From: Candidatus Zixiibacteriota bacterium
GTDB lineage: Bacteria > Zixibacteria > MSB-5A5 > GN15 > JAAZOE01
Length of the DNA stretch: 64,000 nucleotides
Assembly (NCBI GenBank): GCA_036480375.1
Contig: JAZGGI010000028.1
Span: 124,001-188,000, forward strand
Direction: 5' to 3'
The translations under genes and the position numbers were made by a program. Of this stretch, positions 54,169 to 64,000 are shown in pieces (the first letter of the stretch is position 1; each line of letters begins with the position of its first letter). Below the pieces are notes generated by a model. The model searched no databases and had not been told where the DNA came from. It saw only the letters and a program-made list of their open reading frames with translations.

Positions 54169-54759
54169 TCACGGACAGCACGGCTCCCTCGGTGGATCGC
54201 CGCCTTTAAAAACGTGGTTTATCAAATAGACAGCGTCGCCGACATTTACTCCGTCGTCATCATTTGCATCGCCGCTACATACCGGATCGGGTGCGGGACC
54301 ACCTTTGAAAACATGATTTATAATGAATACTGCGTCGCCAACGTTGACATAGTCATCGCCATTGGCATCACCACATATATAGGGAGCCGGAGATTCTCCA
54401 GACTCCTTCCAAAAACCGTGGTTGAGGTCATAGCTGGTCGATGAGCCAAAGCCGACGGCGGTCTGCCCGGCGGTGCCGATGAGGGTGTAGGTTGTAGACG
54501 TGCTTTTTCCACTGCCTGATGAAATCACCTGCCATTTGATCTGCTCGCCGGACTCTGGTTCTGTCGGAGATAGCAGAGGAGTCGATGGCTGAATCTTGTC
54601 CTGAGTAGTCGGCTGCGCCGTATCCTTGATCTTTTTGACAGTGGTTACTTTAACTCTTATAGGCTCCTTAGATTTATCTCCGGCCACGGAATCTGCGACC
54701 GCCACCGGAAACACAAAGGCCGCCACCGTTACGATATTTATATAAAATTGCCTCTTCAT
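54169..54759 (-). CDS. Secreted protein with dockerin-type repeat pair
   Basis: A 196-residue protein with an N-terminal signal sequence (about 1-26), then a Thr/Pro-rich stretch. A segment follows (residues 74-118) resembling the short extracellular modules with ISSGSGKSTSTTYTLIGTAGQ. Two near-identical repeats complete it, 129-153 (CGDANGDDYVNVGDAVFIIN) and 161-186 (CSGDANDDDGVNVGDAVYLI), with the calcium-loop pattern of type I dockerins. Dockerins normally dock onto cohesins, but no cohesin is visible here. The ATG overlaps the adhesin stop by four bases (ATGA), so the two are coupled. Confidence 0.82.
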   Translation of the reverse strand: MKRQFYINIVTVAAFVFPVAVADSVAGDKSKEPIRVKVTTVKKIKDTAQPTTQDKIQPSTPLLSPTEPESGEQIKWQVISSGSGKSTSTTYTLIGTAGQTAVGFGSSTSYDLNHGFWKESGESPAPYICGDANGDDYVNVGDAVFIINHVFKGGPAPDPVCSGDANDDDGVNVGDAVYLINHVFKGGDPPREPCCP

Positions 54760-56864
54760 TTCGCTCCCTCCAGAGAGCCCAGTGGTGCCTCACCAGGCTG
54801 ACCTTTCGACACAGCTGGCTGATATGCCATGGCCGGTCTTATCACCTGATAATCCTCATGGCCTTTCCTGACAGCCATGACAATAAAGTCAAAATCGTAA
54901 GTACCCTCTCCGTTACTGAGTTCGCGGACAACAAATCGATCAGGGCTTTTTTCCACCACTGCCAGTCCTCTGGATTCAGCAGAAAGGGGCGTAAGCTGAA
55001 TCGTGATTCCCTCAGACACCGCAACAGCCCCGAAATGTTCAGGAAGAGTGACTTTCGCTATTCCATTTTCCAGATGCCCGGTTCCTCGCACATAGGCGGC
55101 TGCCTCCGGGCCTTCGGGGCAAGCATACCTGATATCAGTTCCTGGCTGGTCGGGATTCGCCACACGGAAACCCTTGACTTGGGCTTCGATCTCACCAAAG
55201 CCGTCACCATTCACAAACAGGCGTGCCAGAGGTTCTCCGAGGTCATTTATTATACTTATTTCCCCGTTGCCAATATCATCCACAAACATGTTTGCCCGAG
55301 GAAACCCATCGGCACCTCCTACAGATATAAAACCATGGTCAGGGTTATCCCGAAGGTCGCTCAACAGTATATTAAGATTGCCGTTCGGGCCGAACGTCGC
55401 CATTGCGCCGCCGCCCGCTTCCCCGTCTGCAATTCCGCAAATCATTCTACCGGTCGCCGGATCAAACGTTTGAATACTGCCTCCTCCATCCTGCGTAGGA
55501 GATATCAGACAAAGATTGTCTCCGTCGGCATTAGTTTGCAGGATATTCCCTTGAACAGTAAGCTGTTCCGGGGTAATTGCGGTGCCGATACCTACACCTC
55601 CCGAAGCCTGTATCAGGAACTGGAAGTCACCGGTCGAAGCGAAACCAAGCGGGTCCATGTCTGACCATACGAAGGTTCCATTATGAATCGCTCGGGCGTT
55701 TTGGCCTGCGGCAAAAGAATACGATCCAGCTGCAGTATTGTTCTCCCCCCCGGGGACTGTGCTGCCCGTGCCGCTGGCGGTGTTGTTACCCCCGCCGCCG
55801 ACGGTACTCGCAAAGCCGTTGGCTGTGTTCCACCCCCCGCCGGCGACTGTACACGAATCATTACTGGCAATATTGTGACCGCCGCCACCGACAGTGCTGG
55901 CAGGGCCGCTGGCGGTGTTTTCAGATCCGCCGCCGACAAATCCGTGGTCAAGGATTACAGTATTCCCCTCCCCCCCCGCGATGGAGCCACCATTGCCAGC
56001 GACAAGATTTCTTCTGCCCCCACCGATGGCAGAATAGTCGCCCTCTGCCGTGTTTCCATTCTCGAATTCCCCTCCACCACCGCTGATAACAGAGCTTTCA
56101 CCCACGGCGTCGTTTCCGGCGCCGCCGCCAACAGTACTGGCAGGGCCGCTGGCGGTGTTTTCAGATCCGCCGCCGACAAACCCTTGGTCAAGGGTTACGG
56201 TATTCCACTCGCCCCCCGCGATGGAGCCACCATTGCCAGCGACAAGATTTCTTCTGCCTCCGCCGATGGCGGAATGGTCGCCCTCTACGGTATTGTGTGA
56301 TCCGCCAGCAATTGTCGACCAATTGCCGGTCACGATGTTGCGGTTACCGGCGACGAAGGCAAAACCGCCCGTATTAGTATGGCCCGGGCCAATGGTGGCC
56401 TTGCCGGATACACCGGTTACAGTAAGGTCGCCTTGAATTGATACGTCGCTGGATATGATGCCGCCTGCGGCGCCATCAACAGTGGCGACCCGGTGCGCAT
56501 AGGGGGCAGAGGTCAGTCGCGTTCGGGGTATTAGTTCATCGGGGTCGGGGAGGACGCGAATGCCAAGCCAACGATCAGGCCCGTCAAACTCAGCATCCGA
56601 TATGGGATTCAATATACCCAGGATGACGTTGAATCCCCCGTTGTCGTCCGGGTCGATAATCCGCTCTTGAGCCCAGCACTCATCGGCGTCTGGCGTCGGG
56701 AGAGTCCAAATGGTAAACACCACGTTGACCGGGTCAATCACCGGTTCGCCGTTGGCGGCCGCCAAGAAGCCCTGGAAGTTGATGAGCTGCGGCACCTCAG
56801 CCGTGATGAACGACGCCATGACCAGAATAGCCAGCAGGATTAGCAAAATGTTAATTTTTCGCAT
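54756..56864 (-). CDS. Repeat-rich secreted surface protein (trimeric-adhesin-head-like)
   Basis: The 702-residue protein has a signal peptide (about 1-22) and an N-terminal domain (QLINFQGFLAAANGEPVIDP). Residues about 150-390 are GGGxxNxAxG-type repeats, like the left-handed beta-roll heads of YadA/Hep_Hag adhesins (STVGGGAGNDAVGESSVISG). Later parts contain beta-rich domains and a C-terminal domain of unknown type. There is no YadA anchor, so it is not a classical trimeric autotransporter. Two tracts about 160 bp long recur 240 bp apart with few differences, a recent in-frame duplication of 80 residues. With the dockerin partner, surface assembly is plausible. Confidence 0.78.
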   Translation of the reverse strand: MRKINILLILLAILVMASFITAEVPQLINFQGFLAAANGEPVIDPVNVVFTIWTLPTPDADECWAQERIIDPDDNGGFNVILGILNPISDAEFDGPDRWLGIRVLPDPDELIPRTRLTSAPYAHRVATVDGAAGGIISSDVSIQGDLTVTGVSGKATIGPGHTNTGGFAFVAGNRNIVTGNWSTIAGGSHNTVEGDHSAIGGGRRNLVAGNGGSIAGGEWNTVTLDQGFVGGGSENTASGPASTVGGGAGNDAVGESSVISGGGGEFENGNTAEGDYSAIGGGRRNLVAGNGGSIAGGEGNTVILDHGFVGGGSENTASGPASTVGGGGHNIASNDSCTVAGGGWNTANGFASTVGGGGNNTASGTGSTVPGGENNTAAGSYSFAAGQNARAIHNGTFVWSDMDPLGFASTGDFQFLIQASGGVGIGTAITPEQLTVQGNILQTNADGDNLCLISPTQDGGGSIQTFDPATGRMICGIADGEAGGGAMATFGPNGNLNILLSDLRDNPDHGFISVGGADGFPRANMFVDDIGNGEISIINDLGEPLARLFVNGDGFGEIEAQVKGFRVANPDQPGTDIRYACPEGPEAAAYVRGTGHLENGIAKVTLPEHFGAVAVSEGITIQLTPLSAESRGLAVVEKSPDRFVVRELSNGEGTYDFDFIVMAVRKGHEDYQVIRPAMAYQPAVSKGQPGEAPLGSLEGAK
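55891..56292. repeat. Direct duplication inside the surface-protein gene
   Basis: Bases 55891-56052 and 56131-56292 are near-identical, offset by exactly 240 bp (80 codons). They encode the repeated segment starting with an ENTASGPASTVGGG-type motif. The similarity at DNA level implies recent duplication or gene conversion. Confidence 0.85.
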
Positions 56865-57498: not shown

Positions 57499-58421
57499 GT
57501 AACAAAAGCACAACGAGATATTGGCCGGAAGCTTCGGATACTAAATCATGCTAAGGAAACAGGAAATGTTTCAAAAACTTGCCGTTATTTTGGTATATCT
57601 CATGAGATTTTTTACCAGTGGAGAAGGTATTGCGAGAAGTACGGTGAAGAGAGCTTAATAAATAGTAAGCCATGTCCTCAGAATCCGAAATTACGATTTG
57701 CCTCTGAAATTGAGAAAAAAATTATTTATCTTCGCAGGAAATATCATTTGGGTCGGCTTTGCATATCTTGGTTTCTGGATCGTTATCATGGGATCAAGGT
57801 TTCCCCCGGCGGTGTTCGAGGAGTATTACAGCGAAATGGATTAAATCGCTTGCCCAGGAACATTAAACCTCGGACAGTTCAGACCCATCGCTACGAAAAA
57901 CAGGTTTCCGGTCATCACTCCAAGTCGGTGTGAAGTTTCCTAAATTTGAAGACAGAGAAGGCAAAAAGATTCGCCGTTTTCAATATACAGCCATTGATGA
58001 TGCCACTCGTATAAGAGCCTTAAAGATATATAGCCGACACATACAGAAAAATGCTATAAAATTTGTTAATTATGTGATTGACAAATTTCCCTTCCGAATT
58101 CATACTGTTCGTACTGACAACGGCCATGAATTTCATGCAAAATTCCACTGGCACTTGGCGGATTTATGGATTCGGCATGTTTATATTAAACCACGAACGC
58201 CTCGGCTTAATGGAAAAGTTGAACGATCTCACGGAACCGATGAAGTCGAATTTTATCAGCTTTTAGAATATACTGGTGATGTTGATCTTAATGAAAAATT
58301 GAAACAATGGGAAGATTACTATAACTTCAATAGACCACATTGTGCATTAAAAGGAAAATCCCCATATAAGGTGCTGAAAGAAAAAATAGATAATCAAAAA
58401 TCTCTGTCAAACGAGGTTTAG
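57499..58421 (+). pseudogene. Decayed IS481-family transposase
   Basis: The frame opening at 57499 reads an HTH region (RILNHAKETGNVSKTCRYFG then SHEIFYQWRRYCEKYGEESL). A linker follows (INSKPCPQNPKLRFASEIEK, IIYLRRKYHLG). The RNase-H-like DDE core runs in another frame from 57930 (FQYTAIDDATRIRALKIYSR, VRTDNGHEFHAKF, LNGKVERSHGTDEVEFYQLL), so Asp, Asp and Glu are all present. Lesions are a one-base shift at about 57925 (HHSKSV then stop instead of reading on into KFPKFE) and no start codon where the family begins, only GTA after a GGAGGT site. A single-ORF transposase is therefore dead. The terminal inverted repeats were not resolved. Confidence 0.85.
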
Positions 58422-60250: not shown

Positions 60251-60318
60251 TGACCCTCCCCCGGGTTTAGTGGCCACGGAGAAAGGATAGTGTTATGATT
60301 CTTTCAGGAGGTGTTCAG

Positions 60319-60621
60319 ATGTCGGAGAATGGGAATCGTGGCCACTATGATCGGGTTTTCAAAGTTGAAGCAGTTGGTTTAATTGTTGAAGATGGCCGCA
60401 CAGCGACCGAAGTCGCCTGTCATCCTGGCATTCACGTCAATCTGATTTATCTTTGGAAGAAACAATTGGCTGAAGATTCTGAAGAAGCATTTCCGGGTCT
60501 TGGTAAGTTGAGAGCATCCGATGCGGAACTTCGTCGATTGTAACGTGAGCTTACCGATGTCAAAGAAGAGCGCGATATCTTAAAAAAAGCCTTGGCCATT
60601 TTCTCGAAGAAGCCTCGATGA
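60319..60621 (+). pseudogene. IS3 orfA (helix-turn-helix), with premature stop
   Basis: It starts at ATG 60319, seven bases after AGGAGGT. It encodes an HTH protein (HYDRVFKVEAVGLIVEDGRT, NLIYLWKKQLAED), then reads TAA at 60541 where CAA would be expected, followed by RELTDVKEERDILKKALAIF and the normal TGA. The stop probably abolishes the orfAB fusion transposase. Confidence 0.85.
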
Positions 60622-61317
60622 AGTATCAATTTATAGAGGATCGCCGCTCTGAATCGAGAGTAACGAAGATGTGCCGGGCTATGCGAGTATTGAGGAGCGG
60701 TTATTATGATTGGCGAGGTTGCTGTGAGAGTAGGCGGTCGATAGATAATCGTGTTTTGTTGACTCATATTCGGATCGTTCATAAACAGAGTCGAGCGACC
60801 TATGGATCGCCTCGCATGAGGGTAAAATTAAATGAGTCGGGTCTCGCCTGTGGTGAGATTCGAGTTGCTCGATTGATGCGAGAGAACGGGATACGGGCCA
60901 AGAGGATGGGGAAGTTTCGTGCCACGACTAATTCTAAGCATAGTTATCCGTCAATCCCGAATCTTCTAAACCGTCGTTTTGAAGTTACAACTCCCAATAC
61001 GGTCTGGGTTTCGGACATCACCTGACAGCGATCGAGGCCGTCAGTACGCCTCGGACAACTATCAGAAATTGCTGAAAGAGAATCGCATAACCCGCAGTAT
61101 GAGTCGCCGGGGCGATTGTTGGGACAATGCCCCGAGGGATTCATTCTTTGGGACTTTGAAGACGGAACTGATCTATCATGAATAATTTATCAATAGAGAG
61201 GATGCCAGATTGAAAATATTTGATTATATTGAGATGTTTTATAACCGTCAACGCCGCCATTCGAGCCTGGGCTATAAAAGCCCGGTTGATTTCGAAAGGG
61301 CGGCTACCCTAACTTAA
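60618..61317 (+). pseudogene. IS3 orfB (integrase core), internal deletion
   Basis: It starts ATGAAGTATCAATTT overlapping orfA. The N-terminal part runs through KQSRATYGSPRMRVKLNESG to [11 protein letters not shown], the strand bearing the first catalytic Asp. Sequence then jumps to [20 protein letters not shown], so about 80 residues of the core are missing. The catalytic Glu region reads [16 protein letters not shown] with Asp replacing Glu, and a later TAA interrupts the C-terminus (after TELIYHE). Conserved C-terminal sequence [15 protein letters not shown] ends at 61317. It cannot be functional. Confidence 0.87.
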
Positions 61318-61348: not shown

Positions 61349-61652
61349 GAATCCATGTGCCTTTGATTCGATGCCAGTTTTGGCAATCCTCTCGATATTA
61401 GTTTTCGTTTCGATATTTTCTTATTCGTTTTGGTTTAGGTGTAGCGGACTCTGAGGAATATTTATTTTCTTGTTGACGTGGATTATTTGAGAGACTACAA
61501 TTTTACGAAAGGTTGTTGTTTAATCCAAGGCTAAGGTTGTAATCACGTATTTACCAGGATAATGCTCATAGCGAAAGTGATAAAGCAAACTATTGGAAGC
61601 TTTTCGCATCAATGCCAAGGTTTAATTTACTGTCGTATGAGGAGATACGGGC
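61349..61652. other. Intergenic region with promoter of the DUF4956-CotH operon
   Basis: It contains a strong promoter at 61473-61501 and a leader of about 145 bases before the DUF4956 start. A weak inverted repeat (GCGAAA with TTTTCGC) lies in the leader. I see no gene in the left third. Confidence 0.6.
61473..61501 (+). promoter_or_regulatory. Promoter of DUF4956 and CotH genes
   Basis: TTGACG (61473-61478) and TACAAT (61496-61501) have an ideal 17-base spacer. Both hexamers differ from consensus by one base. Transcription would start at about 61508. Confidence 0.72.
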
Positions 61653-62336
61653 ATGAATAAATTTGACTCATTTCAGCAATTTTTATCGACGCAATCTATC
61701 GAAATAGAAATACTGGGATTCATATTTAATATAATCCTGGCCGGTATTCTGGCGTTAATTCTCGGATATTTGTACCAGCGTTATGGCACATCTTTATCCA
61801 ATCGCAATATGTTCGCCCGCAATTTTCTGATGATAACAATGACAACGATGGTAATAATCACTATTGTCAAATCATCCTTGGCATTATCGCTCGGATTGGT
61901 CGGAGCGTTATCAATCGTTAGATTCAGAGCCGCAATTAAAGAACCGGAAGAATTGGCATATCTGTTCCTGGCGATAGCGGTAGGCTTGGGGCTTGGAGCC
62001 GACCAGCGCAAGATTACAATCATAGCATTCATCCTGATTGGGCTCAGTATAATTATAACTCGGAAATCGCGCAAAAGGATAGATGGAAACAGCATCTATT
62101 TAACCGTAACATCAACCGGTGAGAAGAAACTGGAATTGAAACAGATCATTGATATATTATCAAAATACTGCAAAGGAATAGATCTCAAACGTTCCGACGA
62201 AAACAAGGAATTAACCGAAGCCTCATTTGTAGTTGAATCTGAAGGTTATGATCAGCTTGGAAAAGCCCGCGATGAGCTTTATGGGCTAAACGATAAAATC
62301 CAGATTACTCTTATGGATAACAAAGGTCTGGCATAA
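61653..62336 (+). CDS. DUF4956 membrane protein
   Basis: A 227-residue protein with four predicted membrane helices (about 17-42, 54-74, 75-90 and 100-136) and a cytoplasmic C-terminal alpha/beta part (about 145-227). It has the DUF4956 core LVGALSIVRFRAAIKEPEEL followed by AYLFLAIAVGLGLGA. The RFRAxIKEPEE loop is highly conserved, with charged residues suggesting a catalytic or binding site. The family often sits next to VTC polyphosphate-polymerase and CotH genes (family knowledge). A GGAG site precedes the ATG. The stop abuts the CotH start (TAAATG). Confidence 0.88.
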   Translation: MNKFDSFQQFLSTQSIEIEILGFIFNIILAGILALILGYLYQRYGTSLSNRNMFARNFLMITMTTMVIITIVKSSLALSLGLVGALSIVRFRAAIKEPEELAYLFLAIAVGLGLGADQRKITIIAFILIGLSIIITRKSRKRIDGNSIYLTVTSTGEKKLELKQIIDILSKYCKGIDLKRSDENKELTEASFVVESEGYDQLGKARDELYGLNDKIQITLMDNKGLA

Positions 62337-64000
62337 ATGAAACTCAAAGAACCGCATCCACGAGGCGGCTGGGTTTCCTCTCTATTTGGATATGCAAAAA
62401 CATTTCCACGTTCTCTGAAACTTCTAATTCTAATAGGTATCCATATAGTAGTTCTATTGGGCGTCGGTTTGTCAGGCGCATACTACGGTATGATGTTATT
62501 TAAGCGAGGTGATGCGCATAATTTAGATCATATTGTCGAAAATATTATGCAAACCCGGATCGGAGTGATTGGCAATTATATCAAGGGCCTGTCGTCGCAT
62601 CCCGATTATATTCAGATCGATATAAAGTTTAAGGACTTTCAAAAACTTGTTTATGACAGAGCCGTGGCTCTTGAAAAACAGATATTAATATCAAGCTCCG
62701 ATAATTTTGTCCCTGCGGAAATACGTTATGGGGATGATATTTACCGTGCCAAAATCCGACTCAAAGGCGATTGGACCAAGGACAACCTTCAGGGTGATAA
62801 ATGGTCGTATCGGGTAAAAATTAGAGGCGATAGCGCCCTTTTTGGAATGAAGCAGTTTTCTCTGCATCATCCCCGCGCACGGGATTATGTCTATGAGTGG
62901 CTTTTTCAAAAAGCGCTGGCACGAGAAAAAATCGTCAATCTCAGATATAAATTCGTCAGGGTTTCGCTCAACGGAAAAGATGTCGGCATTTATGCCCTCG
63001 AAGAACATTTTGAAAAAAGATTGATTGAGCATACCGAGAATCGGGAAGGTCCGATAATTAAATTCAATGAAAATCTCTTCTGGCAGGATCTGCAGGCTCA
63101 CTGGCATATCGGAGGGAGCACCGGACTTAGTTCACTCAATGCGGCCAATATTGATATGTTTAAAAGCAATACTATCTTAAATGATCCGATCTTATCCAAA
63201 CAATTTTTCCTGGGGCATTCTCTTTTGGAAAAATTTCGCCATGGAGAACTTCCAGCCAGAGAAGTTTTTGACATACCAAAGACGGCGATGCATCGCGCGT
63301 TGATTGATCTGATGGGTGGAGGGCACGCCCTGTCATGGCATAACCTGAGATTTTATTATAATCCGATTACATCCCGTTTGGAACCGATCGGTTTTGACAA
63401 TGATGCTGGAAATCCGATTTCACATCTGACCTCTACCCATAACTTTCTTGGCGGCCCGTTAAATGATATCGAGCGAAAAATCTTTGCGGATGCCGAAATC
63501 TTCCGTGAATACGTAAAAGTGTTGGAGAAGATTTCGCAAAAAGAATATCTCGATTCGCTTTTGACGGAAGTTGATGATGACCTTCAGGAAAACCTGAGAA
63601 TTATATACAGCGAATTTCCTTATTTTCATTATTCCGAGAGAATACTATATAATAACCAGCAAGTAATTCAAGCGGCTCTACGGCCAACCAAAGCGATCCA
63701 TGCTTATCTAAATTCAAAAAAAGGAACTGAATTGGATCTTGAAATCGGCAATATTCAACTCCTTCCAGTTGAAATTCGTTATTTGTCAAGATTCGGCCAA
63801 AAGATTGCGGAACCTTCCGGCAATACAATCTTCGCCGCAATGGTTAAATCAAAACCGGCGGAATTTCAAAATTTAATATTCAAATTACAGGATAATCTTG
63901 AATGGACCGATTCGACTATCAATGAAATATATCTCAATTATTCAATATTAGGCTCCAGTCGAATCGATTCAATTTCGATTTTTAGCTGGAAACGGATCAA
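62337..64000 (+). CDS. CotH-kinase-like protein, 3' end beyond window
   Basis: This open frame runs from ATG 62337 to the right edge (about 554 residues seen). It has one N-terminal membrane helix (about 28-52), a lipid-independent periplasmic part, and CotH-kinase-like motifs: RIRLKGDWTK-type strand, a KFVRVSLNGKDVGIYALEEH segment, and the active-site-like GFDNDAGN (Asp354-Asn-Asp-Ala-Gly-Asn359). CotH kinases phosphorylate proteins; many CotH-like proteins are of unknown activity. Being coupled to DUF4956, it likely acts with it at the envelope. The RIRLKGDWTK motif is read as KIRLKGDWTKDNLQGDKWSY at residues 139-158. Confidence 0.87.
   Translation, partial: MKLKEPHPRGGWVSSLFGYAKTFPRSLKLLILIGIHIVVLLGVGLSGAYYGMMLFKRGDAHNLDHIVENIMQTRIGVIGNYIKGLSSHPDYIQIDIKFKDFQKLVYDRAVALEKQILISSSDNFVPAEIRYGDDIYRAKIRLKGDWTKDNLQGDKWSYRVKIRGDSALFGMKQFSLHHPRARDYVYEWLFQKALAREKIVNLRYKFVRVSLNGKDVGIYALEEHFEKRLIEHTENREGPIIKFNENLFWQDLQAHWHIGGSTGLSSLNAANIDMFKSNTILNDPILSKQFFLGHSLLEKFRHGELPAREVFDIPKTAMHRALIDLMGGGHALSWHNLRFYYNPITSRLEPIGFDNDAGNPISHLTSTHNFLGGPLNDIERKIFADAEIFREYVKVLEKISQKEYLDSLLTEVDDDLQENLRIIYSEFPYFHYSERILYNNQQVIQAALRPTKAIHAYLNSKKGTELDLEIGNIQLLPVEIRYLSRFGQKIAEPSGNTIFAAMVKSKPAEFQNLIFKLQDNLEWTDSTINEIYLNYSILGSSRIDSISIFSWKRI

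Follow-up and report, generated by a model that had tools for sequence, protein, structure and literature searches.

We find that a DUF4956 membrane protein, a CotH-like protein and a VTC-domain protein are encoded by a three-gene operon at the right edge of the window, the 64,000-nucleotide stretch of DNA that was analysed (G000:C28:124001-188000, from G000, a draft genome of 3.59 Mb and 97% completeness). The trio of families is not new; here it occurs in a genome that lacks PelG. What is new in the operon is its CotH protein, which belongs to a widespread and apparently undescribed version of CotH, here called class B; no description of this subfamily was found in the open-licence literature searched. 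Its strictly conserved change from Asp to His defines a CotH subfamily, and the occurrence of this change in a widespread, predicted exported CotH-fold protein tied to a likely polyphosphate polymerase is what makes the operon most interesting.

A three-gene operon that crosses the window edge

The contig continues past the window edge, and its sequence gives the gene order DUF4956, CotH-like, VTC. Genes beyond the edge are given in the numbering of the L002 stretch (window position = L002 position + 60999).

61473-61501, + strand: promoter-like site TTGACG-17-TACAAT, 10 of 12 consensus matches
61653-62336, + strand: DUF4956 membrane protein, 227 aa (PF16316, E 5.7e-16)
62337-64000 plus 979 bp past the window edge, + strand: CotH class B protein, 880 aa, with residues 1-554 in the window
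L002:3949-4704 (G000:C28:188948-189703), + strand: VTC protein, 251 aa from the first ATG (PF09359, E 7e-22)
L002:4729-5781, - strand: metallophosphoesterase, 350 aa (PF00149, E 5.2e-5)

The first-pass annotation of the window had described a DUF4956 gene coupled by TAAATG to a CotH-like gene, and this is borne out by the junction, at which the CotH ORF begins right behind the DUF4956 stop, and by the PF16316 match (59.1 bits against a cut-off of 30.6). It had also placed a VTC gene off the edge. Reading the sequence to the right located that gene, so the prediction was correct, and the downstream genes did not turn out to be unrelated: VTC is the third member of the operon. The VTC gene starts 948 bp past the window edge and, depending on the ATG chosen, shares its first 20-32 nt with the end of the CotH gene. 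The metallophosphoesterase gene is convergent with the operon and lies 24 bp beyond the VTC end. NCBIfam held no named family for any of the three operon proteins.

The VTC protein is most likely a polyphosphate polymerase

The VTC protein scored 78.6 bits against PF09359 (cut-off 23), and no membrane anchor is predicted for it. With a 24-sequence profile, its best solved relatives were Vtc4 structures (3G3Q, E 4.7e-17). Vtc4 residues K200, R264, R266, E426, K428 and K458 align with K37, R95, R97, E215, K217 and K242, each of which is kept in 24 of 24 sequences; the substitutions R264A/R266A/E426N inactivate yeast VTC (PMC9911596). Where Vtc4 has basic residues that guide polyP away, tripolyphosphatases have Glu (PMC4641920). 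According to our own reading of the alignments and of PMC4641920, three of the four exit-path positions are basic in the bacterial family (R33, K114 and K217) and the fourth is Glu (E35). When the genome was searched for each family, neither PPK1 nor PPK2 was found, which leaves VTC as the only candidate polyphosphate polymerase found there; a Ppx/GppA homologue is present. Because the Vtc4 residues are kept and the genome has no detected PPK1 or PPK2, polymerisation of phosphate is the likeliest activity to judge from sequence.

If the protein were instead a triphosphate tunnel hydrolase, such as a tripolyphosphatase, the operon would be unrelated to polyphosphate synthesis. The tunnel superfamily does include hydrolases, and E35 matches Glu-4 of AtTTM3, a residue that Vtc4 lacks. 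However, the other discriminating positions are basic and not Glu, the equivalent of the catalytic Lys458 is kept in all 24 sequences, and Pfam assigns the protein to VTC rather than to CYTH, so that we regard a hydrolase as very improbable. In the open-licence literature searched, we found no demonstration of polyphosphate synthesis by any bacterial VTC, nor a demonstrated biochemical function for any bacterial VTC or DUF4956 protein.

Class B CotH proteins carry an invariant histidine at an essential aspartate position

PDB searches with single sequences were uninformative, and profiles were needed. PF08757 by itself matched the CotH class B protein only weakly (E 1e-5, residues 140-244); the alignment of the family profile with 5JD9, a B. 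cereus CotH, extended over about 340 positions (E 2.6e-8). In the AF2 model (pLDDT 87.9, pTM 0.62), an N-terminal helix is followed by a kinase-like domain and then by a long beta-helix of right-handed type; these correspond to a membrane anchor at residues 27-45, a CotH kinase fold at about 85-445 and the beta-helix at about 590-860. In Foldseek, the best PDB matches of the model were B. cereus CotH structures, 5JDA (E 6e-13, TMt 0.64), which is CotH with Mg/AMP, and 5JD9 (E 9e-13); the nucleotide-binding fold anticipated in the first-pass annotation is thus present. The next matches were beta-helix proteins, mostly acting on polysaccharides (glucanases, alginate epimerases and polygalacturonases). 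Topology prediction gave one N-terminal anchor, and several Bacteroidota class B CotHs begin with a lipobox-like sequence and look like exported lipoproteins.

The class B protein of the operon carries the signature H330-x3-W-H-N-L-R-F-Y-Y ... D354. In a profile alignment, the HxxxWHN of the family aligned with the NFDGFV-HN loop of 5JD9. Since the two Asp residues of 5JD9 in this stretch are 23 apart, like D228 and D251 of B. subtilis CotH, we equate D228 with His330 and D251 with Asp354. All 32 class B sequences in the alignment have His at the D228 equivalent, as do the 59 motif instances that could be recognised, and canonical CotHs from the same phylum retain Asp here. The equivalent of the metal-binding Asp251, D354, is invariant, as are N336, E222, E223 and R141-x-K143-G-D. 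D228Q abolishes the activity of B. subtilis CotH (PMC7821199). A kinase step may therefore not exist in class B, and we use the name CotH-like class B and not CotH kinase, given that the catalytic Asp228 is replaced by an invariant His330. The earlier reading of the operon as a surface phosphorylation system is accordingly supported by the CotH fold but complicated by an invariant His where canonical CotH has an essential Asp.

In a maximum-likelihood tree, class B and canonical CotHs were separated with support of 100/100, on long stems and with the root unknown. Relatives of the 880-aa protein were found at 49 loci in Zixibacteria, Bacteroidota, Chloroflexota, Planctomycetota, Nitrospinota and others, and the closest include one from a Candidatus Zixiibacteriota genome.

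The uniform His, together with the inactivating effect of D228Q, would also fit a pseudokinase. Class B CotH would then be a structural or sensory subunit that binds polyphosphate or nucleotide without phosphotransfer, that regulates or anchors a VTC-DUF4956 polymerase or organises a surface polymer, and in which the His marks a binding site. There is a precedent in the secretory pseudokinase Fam20A, which activates Fam20C (PMC4421793). Nevertheless, the active-site surroundings of class B are strictly conserved across several phyla and are not decaying, an argument for chemistry, and activity is known from some predicted pseudokinases, such as POMK (PMC5142810). We consider a pseudokinase possible but somewhat unlikely.

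The DUF4956 protein is distantly related to MgtC

A 31-sequence alignment of DUF4956 proteins showed a conserved block, SSLALSLGLVGALSIVRFRxxIKEPEEL, in which R90, R92 and K96 are invariant. The AF2 model (pLDDT 81) has several TM helices followed by a C-terminal alpha/beta domain. This cytosolic domain is ACT/ferredoxin-like, with Foldseek matches to ACT domains of weak E but prob 1.0 and TMt up to 0.70. Against Pfam MgtC (PF02308), the protein in the window scored below cut-off (E 0.5), 23 of 31 relatives matched at E <= 1 (best 2.8e-7), and hhalign of DUF4956 with MgtC gave E 7.5e-6 and a probability of 84%. By these sequence comparisons DUF4956 is a distant relative of MgtC and not a member of that family; PMC12345266 agrees on the MgtC relationship of the DUF4956-type protein. 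An MgtC-like fold need not mean a channel. We rejected assignment of DUF4956 to a known channel, as Foldseek matched the ACT-like domain only and the TM part has no solved relative. By analogy with yeast VTC, DUF4956 might serve as a polyphosphate conduit.

VTC and DUF4956 are genomically coupled

In a survey of the phylum, VTC was present in 6 of 133 genomes and DUF4956 in 7 of 133, with 6 common to both (p ~1e-9). In the seventh DUF4956 genome, G023, the CotH gene (L011) ends in a stretch of undetermined bases, so a VTC gene may have been lost from that sequence. Within 2 kb of class B CotH, the partners at 47 loci, many of them cut by contig ends, were DUF4956 (29), VTC (22) and metallophosphoesterase (14). 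Where no VTC was adjacent, 12 of 13 genomes, many of them Bacteroidota, carried VTC elsewhere. In one class B carrier, G145, no VTC was detected. Canonical CotHs partner VTC-DUF4956 as well; G067:C647 is an example, and its genome also has a class B operon. VTC-DUF4956 therefore seems to be a core with which CotH-type exported partners are exchangeable.

The second type of cluster, VTC-DUF4956 with a canonical-type CotH, was seen at L009:7978-10258, L059 (G067:C647) and L062 (G112:C316). In the phylum of the window, a conserved gene of about 358 aa that has no Pfam match precedes VTC in clusters of this type (representative, L007:2207-3409). At four Flavobacteriales loci (L023, L033, L034 and L052), an inorganic pyrophosphatase, probably a housekeeping neighbour, lies directly upstream of DUF4956-VTC.

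A divergent metallophosphoesterase accompanies some class B loci

One N-terminal membrane anchor is predicted for the metallophosphoesterase beside the operon, which was the sole match in genome G000 to its subfamily profile. With the exception of that at L009, the metallophosphoesterases beside class B fall into a single divergent subfamily in which G-H-x-Y, GD, GNH, H and GD are invariant and whose profile reaches purple acid phosphatases and Rv0805. Of the calcineurin-like ligand motifs (D-x-H, GD, GNH, H and GHxH), these proteins retain GD, GNH and H, but they read G-H-x-Y at motif I and G-D at motif V. Activity of the metallophosphoesterase is uncertain because the Asp of motif I and the GHxH of motif V are not conserved. 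In sister genomes the gene is not beside class B, and there its profile gives much weaker best matches. We rejected it as an obligatory fourth gene of the operon, since it lies within 2 kb at only 14 of the 47 class B loci. The divergent form recurs by class B in several phyla (L016, L025, L027, L031, L036, L042, L050 and others). Active-site residues are altered both in class B CotH and in the neighbouring metallophosphoesterase.

Relation to known systems

The first-pass annotation had seen in the operon a hint of a surface phosphorylation or polyphosphate system of undescribed biochemistry. The VTC protein and the CotH fold are there, but the trio itself has already been described: cotH, a polyphosphate polymerase and DUF4956 are accessory genes of Gram-positive pel operons and are contiguous with pelDEADAFG in streptococci and clostridia (PMC7112168). 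In Streptococcus intermedius, two genes of the trio have deletion phenotypes (PMC12345266): deletion of SIR_1592 (DUF4956-type) or SIR_1594 (CotH-type) reduced aggregation and changed the level of Pel, whereas cells deleted for SIR_1593, the VTC gene, continued to aggregate and to make Pel, with no effect reported in the text consulted. The authors state that they did not find the trio arrangement outside the Pel locus, a statement that the trio described here, outside pel loci, corrects.

The operon resembles the pel accessory genes in comprising the same three families contiguously. It also shares with them, going by the description of SIR_1592-1594 (PMC12345266), a DUF4956-type protein with an MgtC-like TM region and an ACT domain, and a secreted CotH-type protein. 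It differs in the lack of PelG, in occurring in different phyla, in the order DUF4956-CotH-VTC and in the metallophosphoesterase next door; moreover, SIR_1594 is described as CotH plus FN3, whereas the CotH of the operon is class B, with the Asp to His change and a beta-helix. The trio may already have been met outside pel in NELoc-2 of C. perfringens (PMC2879425; CP4_0460-0465), where two VTC-domain genes alternate with genes for membrane proteins of 222-226 aa beside a CotH gene. Unlike in the operon, these membrane proteins are annotated as tubulin/FtsZ and a glycosyltransferase is nearby, but they may be DUF4956 proteins.

The homologous trio seems to act on exopolysaccharide in pel operons, and the operon might likewise regulate or decorate an exopolysaccharide, with polyphosphate being incidental or a signal. 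The contiguity with pelDEADAFG, the altered Pel levels of the two S. intermedius deletion mutants (PMC12345266) and the resemblance of the class B beta-helix to polysaccharide-acting enzymes all favour such a role. We nevertheless think it unlikely: PelG is absent from genome G000, with no pel gene among the operon's flanking ORFs, the 15 kb to the right held no ORF recognisable as a glycan synthase, and the neighbours of class B loci vary from phylum to phylum.

With the yeast VTC complex (Vtc4/Vtc3/Vtc1), the operon shares a tunnel-domain polymerase with the same catalytic residues. The yeast complex couples synthesis to membrane translocation via basic TM residues and a basic channel (PMC9911596). 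The operon's VTC protein, in contrast, lacks both an SPX domain and a fused TM domain; there is a separate MgtC-like partner, and an extracytoplasmic CotH fold is added. The Bacillus CotH spore-coat kinase (5JD9/5JDA; PMC7821199) and class B have in common the fold, the metal-binding Asp (D251 = D354) and the catalytic-loop Asn. Class B differs in having the invariant H330 for D228, a loop one residue longer, a C-terminal beta-helix, a membrane anchor and predicted export, as well as in forming its own clade.

A proposed polyphosphate-linked envelope module

We tentatively propose, as a reading with a reasonable though not an even chance of being right, that the operon is a polyphosphate-linked envelope module in which polyphosphate made in the cytosol is linked, through DUF4956, to the transfer of phosphate or the handling of polyphosphate beyond the membrane. 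Gene order, domain identities, folds, the kept polymerase residues, predicted topology, genomic coupling and the Asp to His change are computational results. We hold back from greater confidence because polyphosphate synthesis and export, the donor outside the cell, the substrate and catalysis by the His form are all points that we infer. In the cytosol, polyphosphate would be built from the gamma-phosphate of ATP by the soluble VTC protein. DUF4956, with its MgtC-like region, ACT-like cytosolic sensor and invariant Arg and Lys residues, could couple synthesis to the membrane as conduit or regulator, a role modelled on the TM domains of yeast VTC. Outside, the membrane-anchored or lipoprotein CotH-fold ectodomain would act on polyphosphate or phosphate and modify a surface polymer or protein, with the beta-helix as a probable glycan-binding or scaffold part; an extracytoplasmic phosphoesterase, where present, might reset the mark.

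A more specific version is that class B CotH is an extracytoplasmic phosphotransferase whose donor is not ATP but VTC-made polyphosphate passed through DUF4956, with the invariant His being catalytic or phospho-accepting. We regard this as a long shot. If true, it would explain how surface phosphorylation by a bacterium can proceed in a place that lacks ATP. The phosphate source for extracytoplasmic kinases is an open question on which the operon bears, and one that PMC7821199 describes as unanswered for spore CotH. The combination of a cytosolic polymerase, a membrane protein and an exported kinase fold in one operon, seen in several phyla, offers a direct and testable hypothesis.

Promoter, leader and upstream neighbourhood

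The first-pass annotation had set the operon under a near-consensus promoter with a 145-base leader. The promoter-like site is there, but carries no evidential weight: such sites numbered 34 against 26.3 +/- 4.3 expected from shuffles, with no clear enrichment. No similarity to the 260 bp upstream of the operon was found in relatives, and the 145-nt leader folded no better than shuffles (z +1.26), being less structured than most of them. The near-consensus promoter is thus true but uninformative. An Rfam scan of the window gave a tRNA as its sole match, and we rejected the promoter and leader as evidence of special regulation.

A broken IS3-type element (HTH_Tnp_1, HTH_21 and rve fragments, with a split integrase core) occupies 60295-61300, about 300 bp upstream of the operon, and a second degraded IS element (rve_3 fragment) lies at 57748-58421. 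The two flank a PMT_2 glycosyltransferase gene. On the - strand, 54756-56864 encodes a repetitive, beta-roll-like surface protein with the repeat GGGxxNTASGxxSTVGGG, followed at 54169-54759 (- strand) by a small dockerin type I protein.
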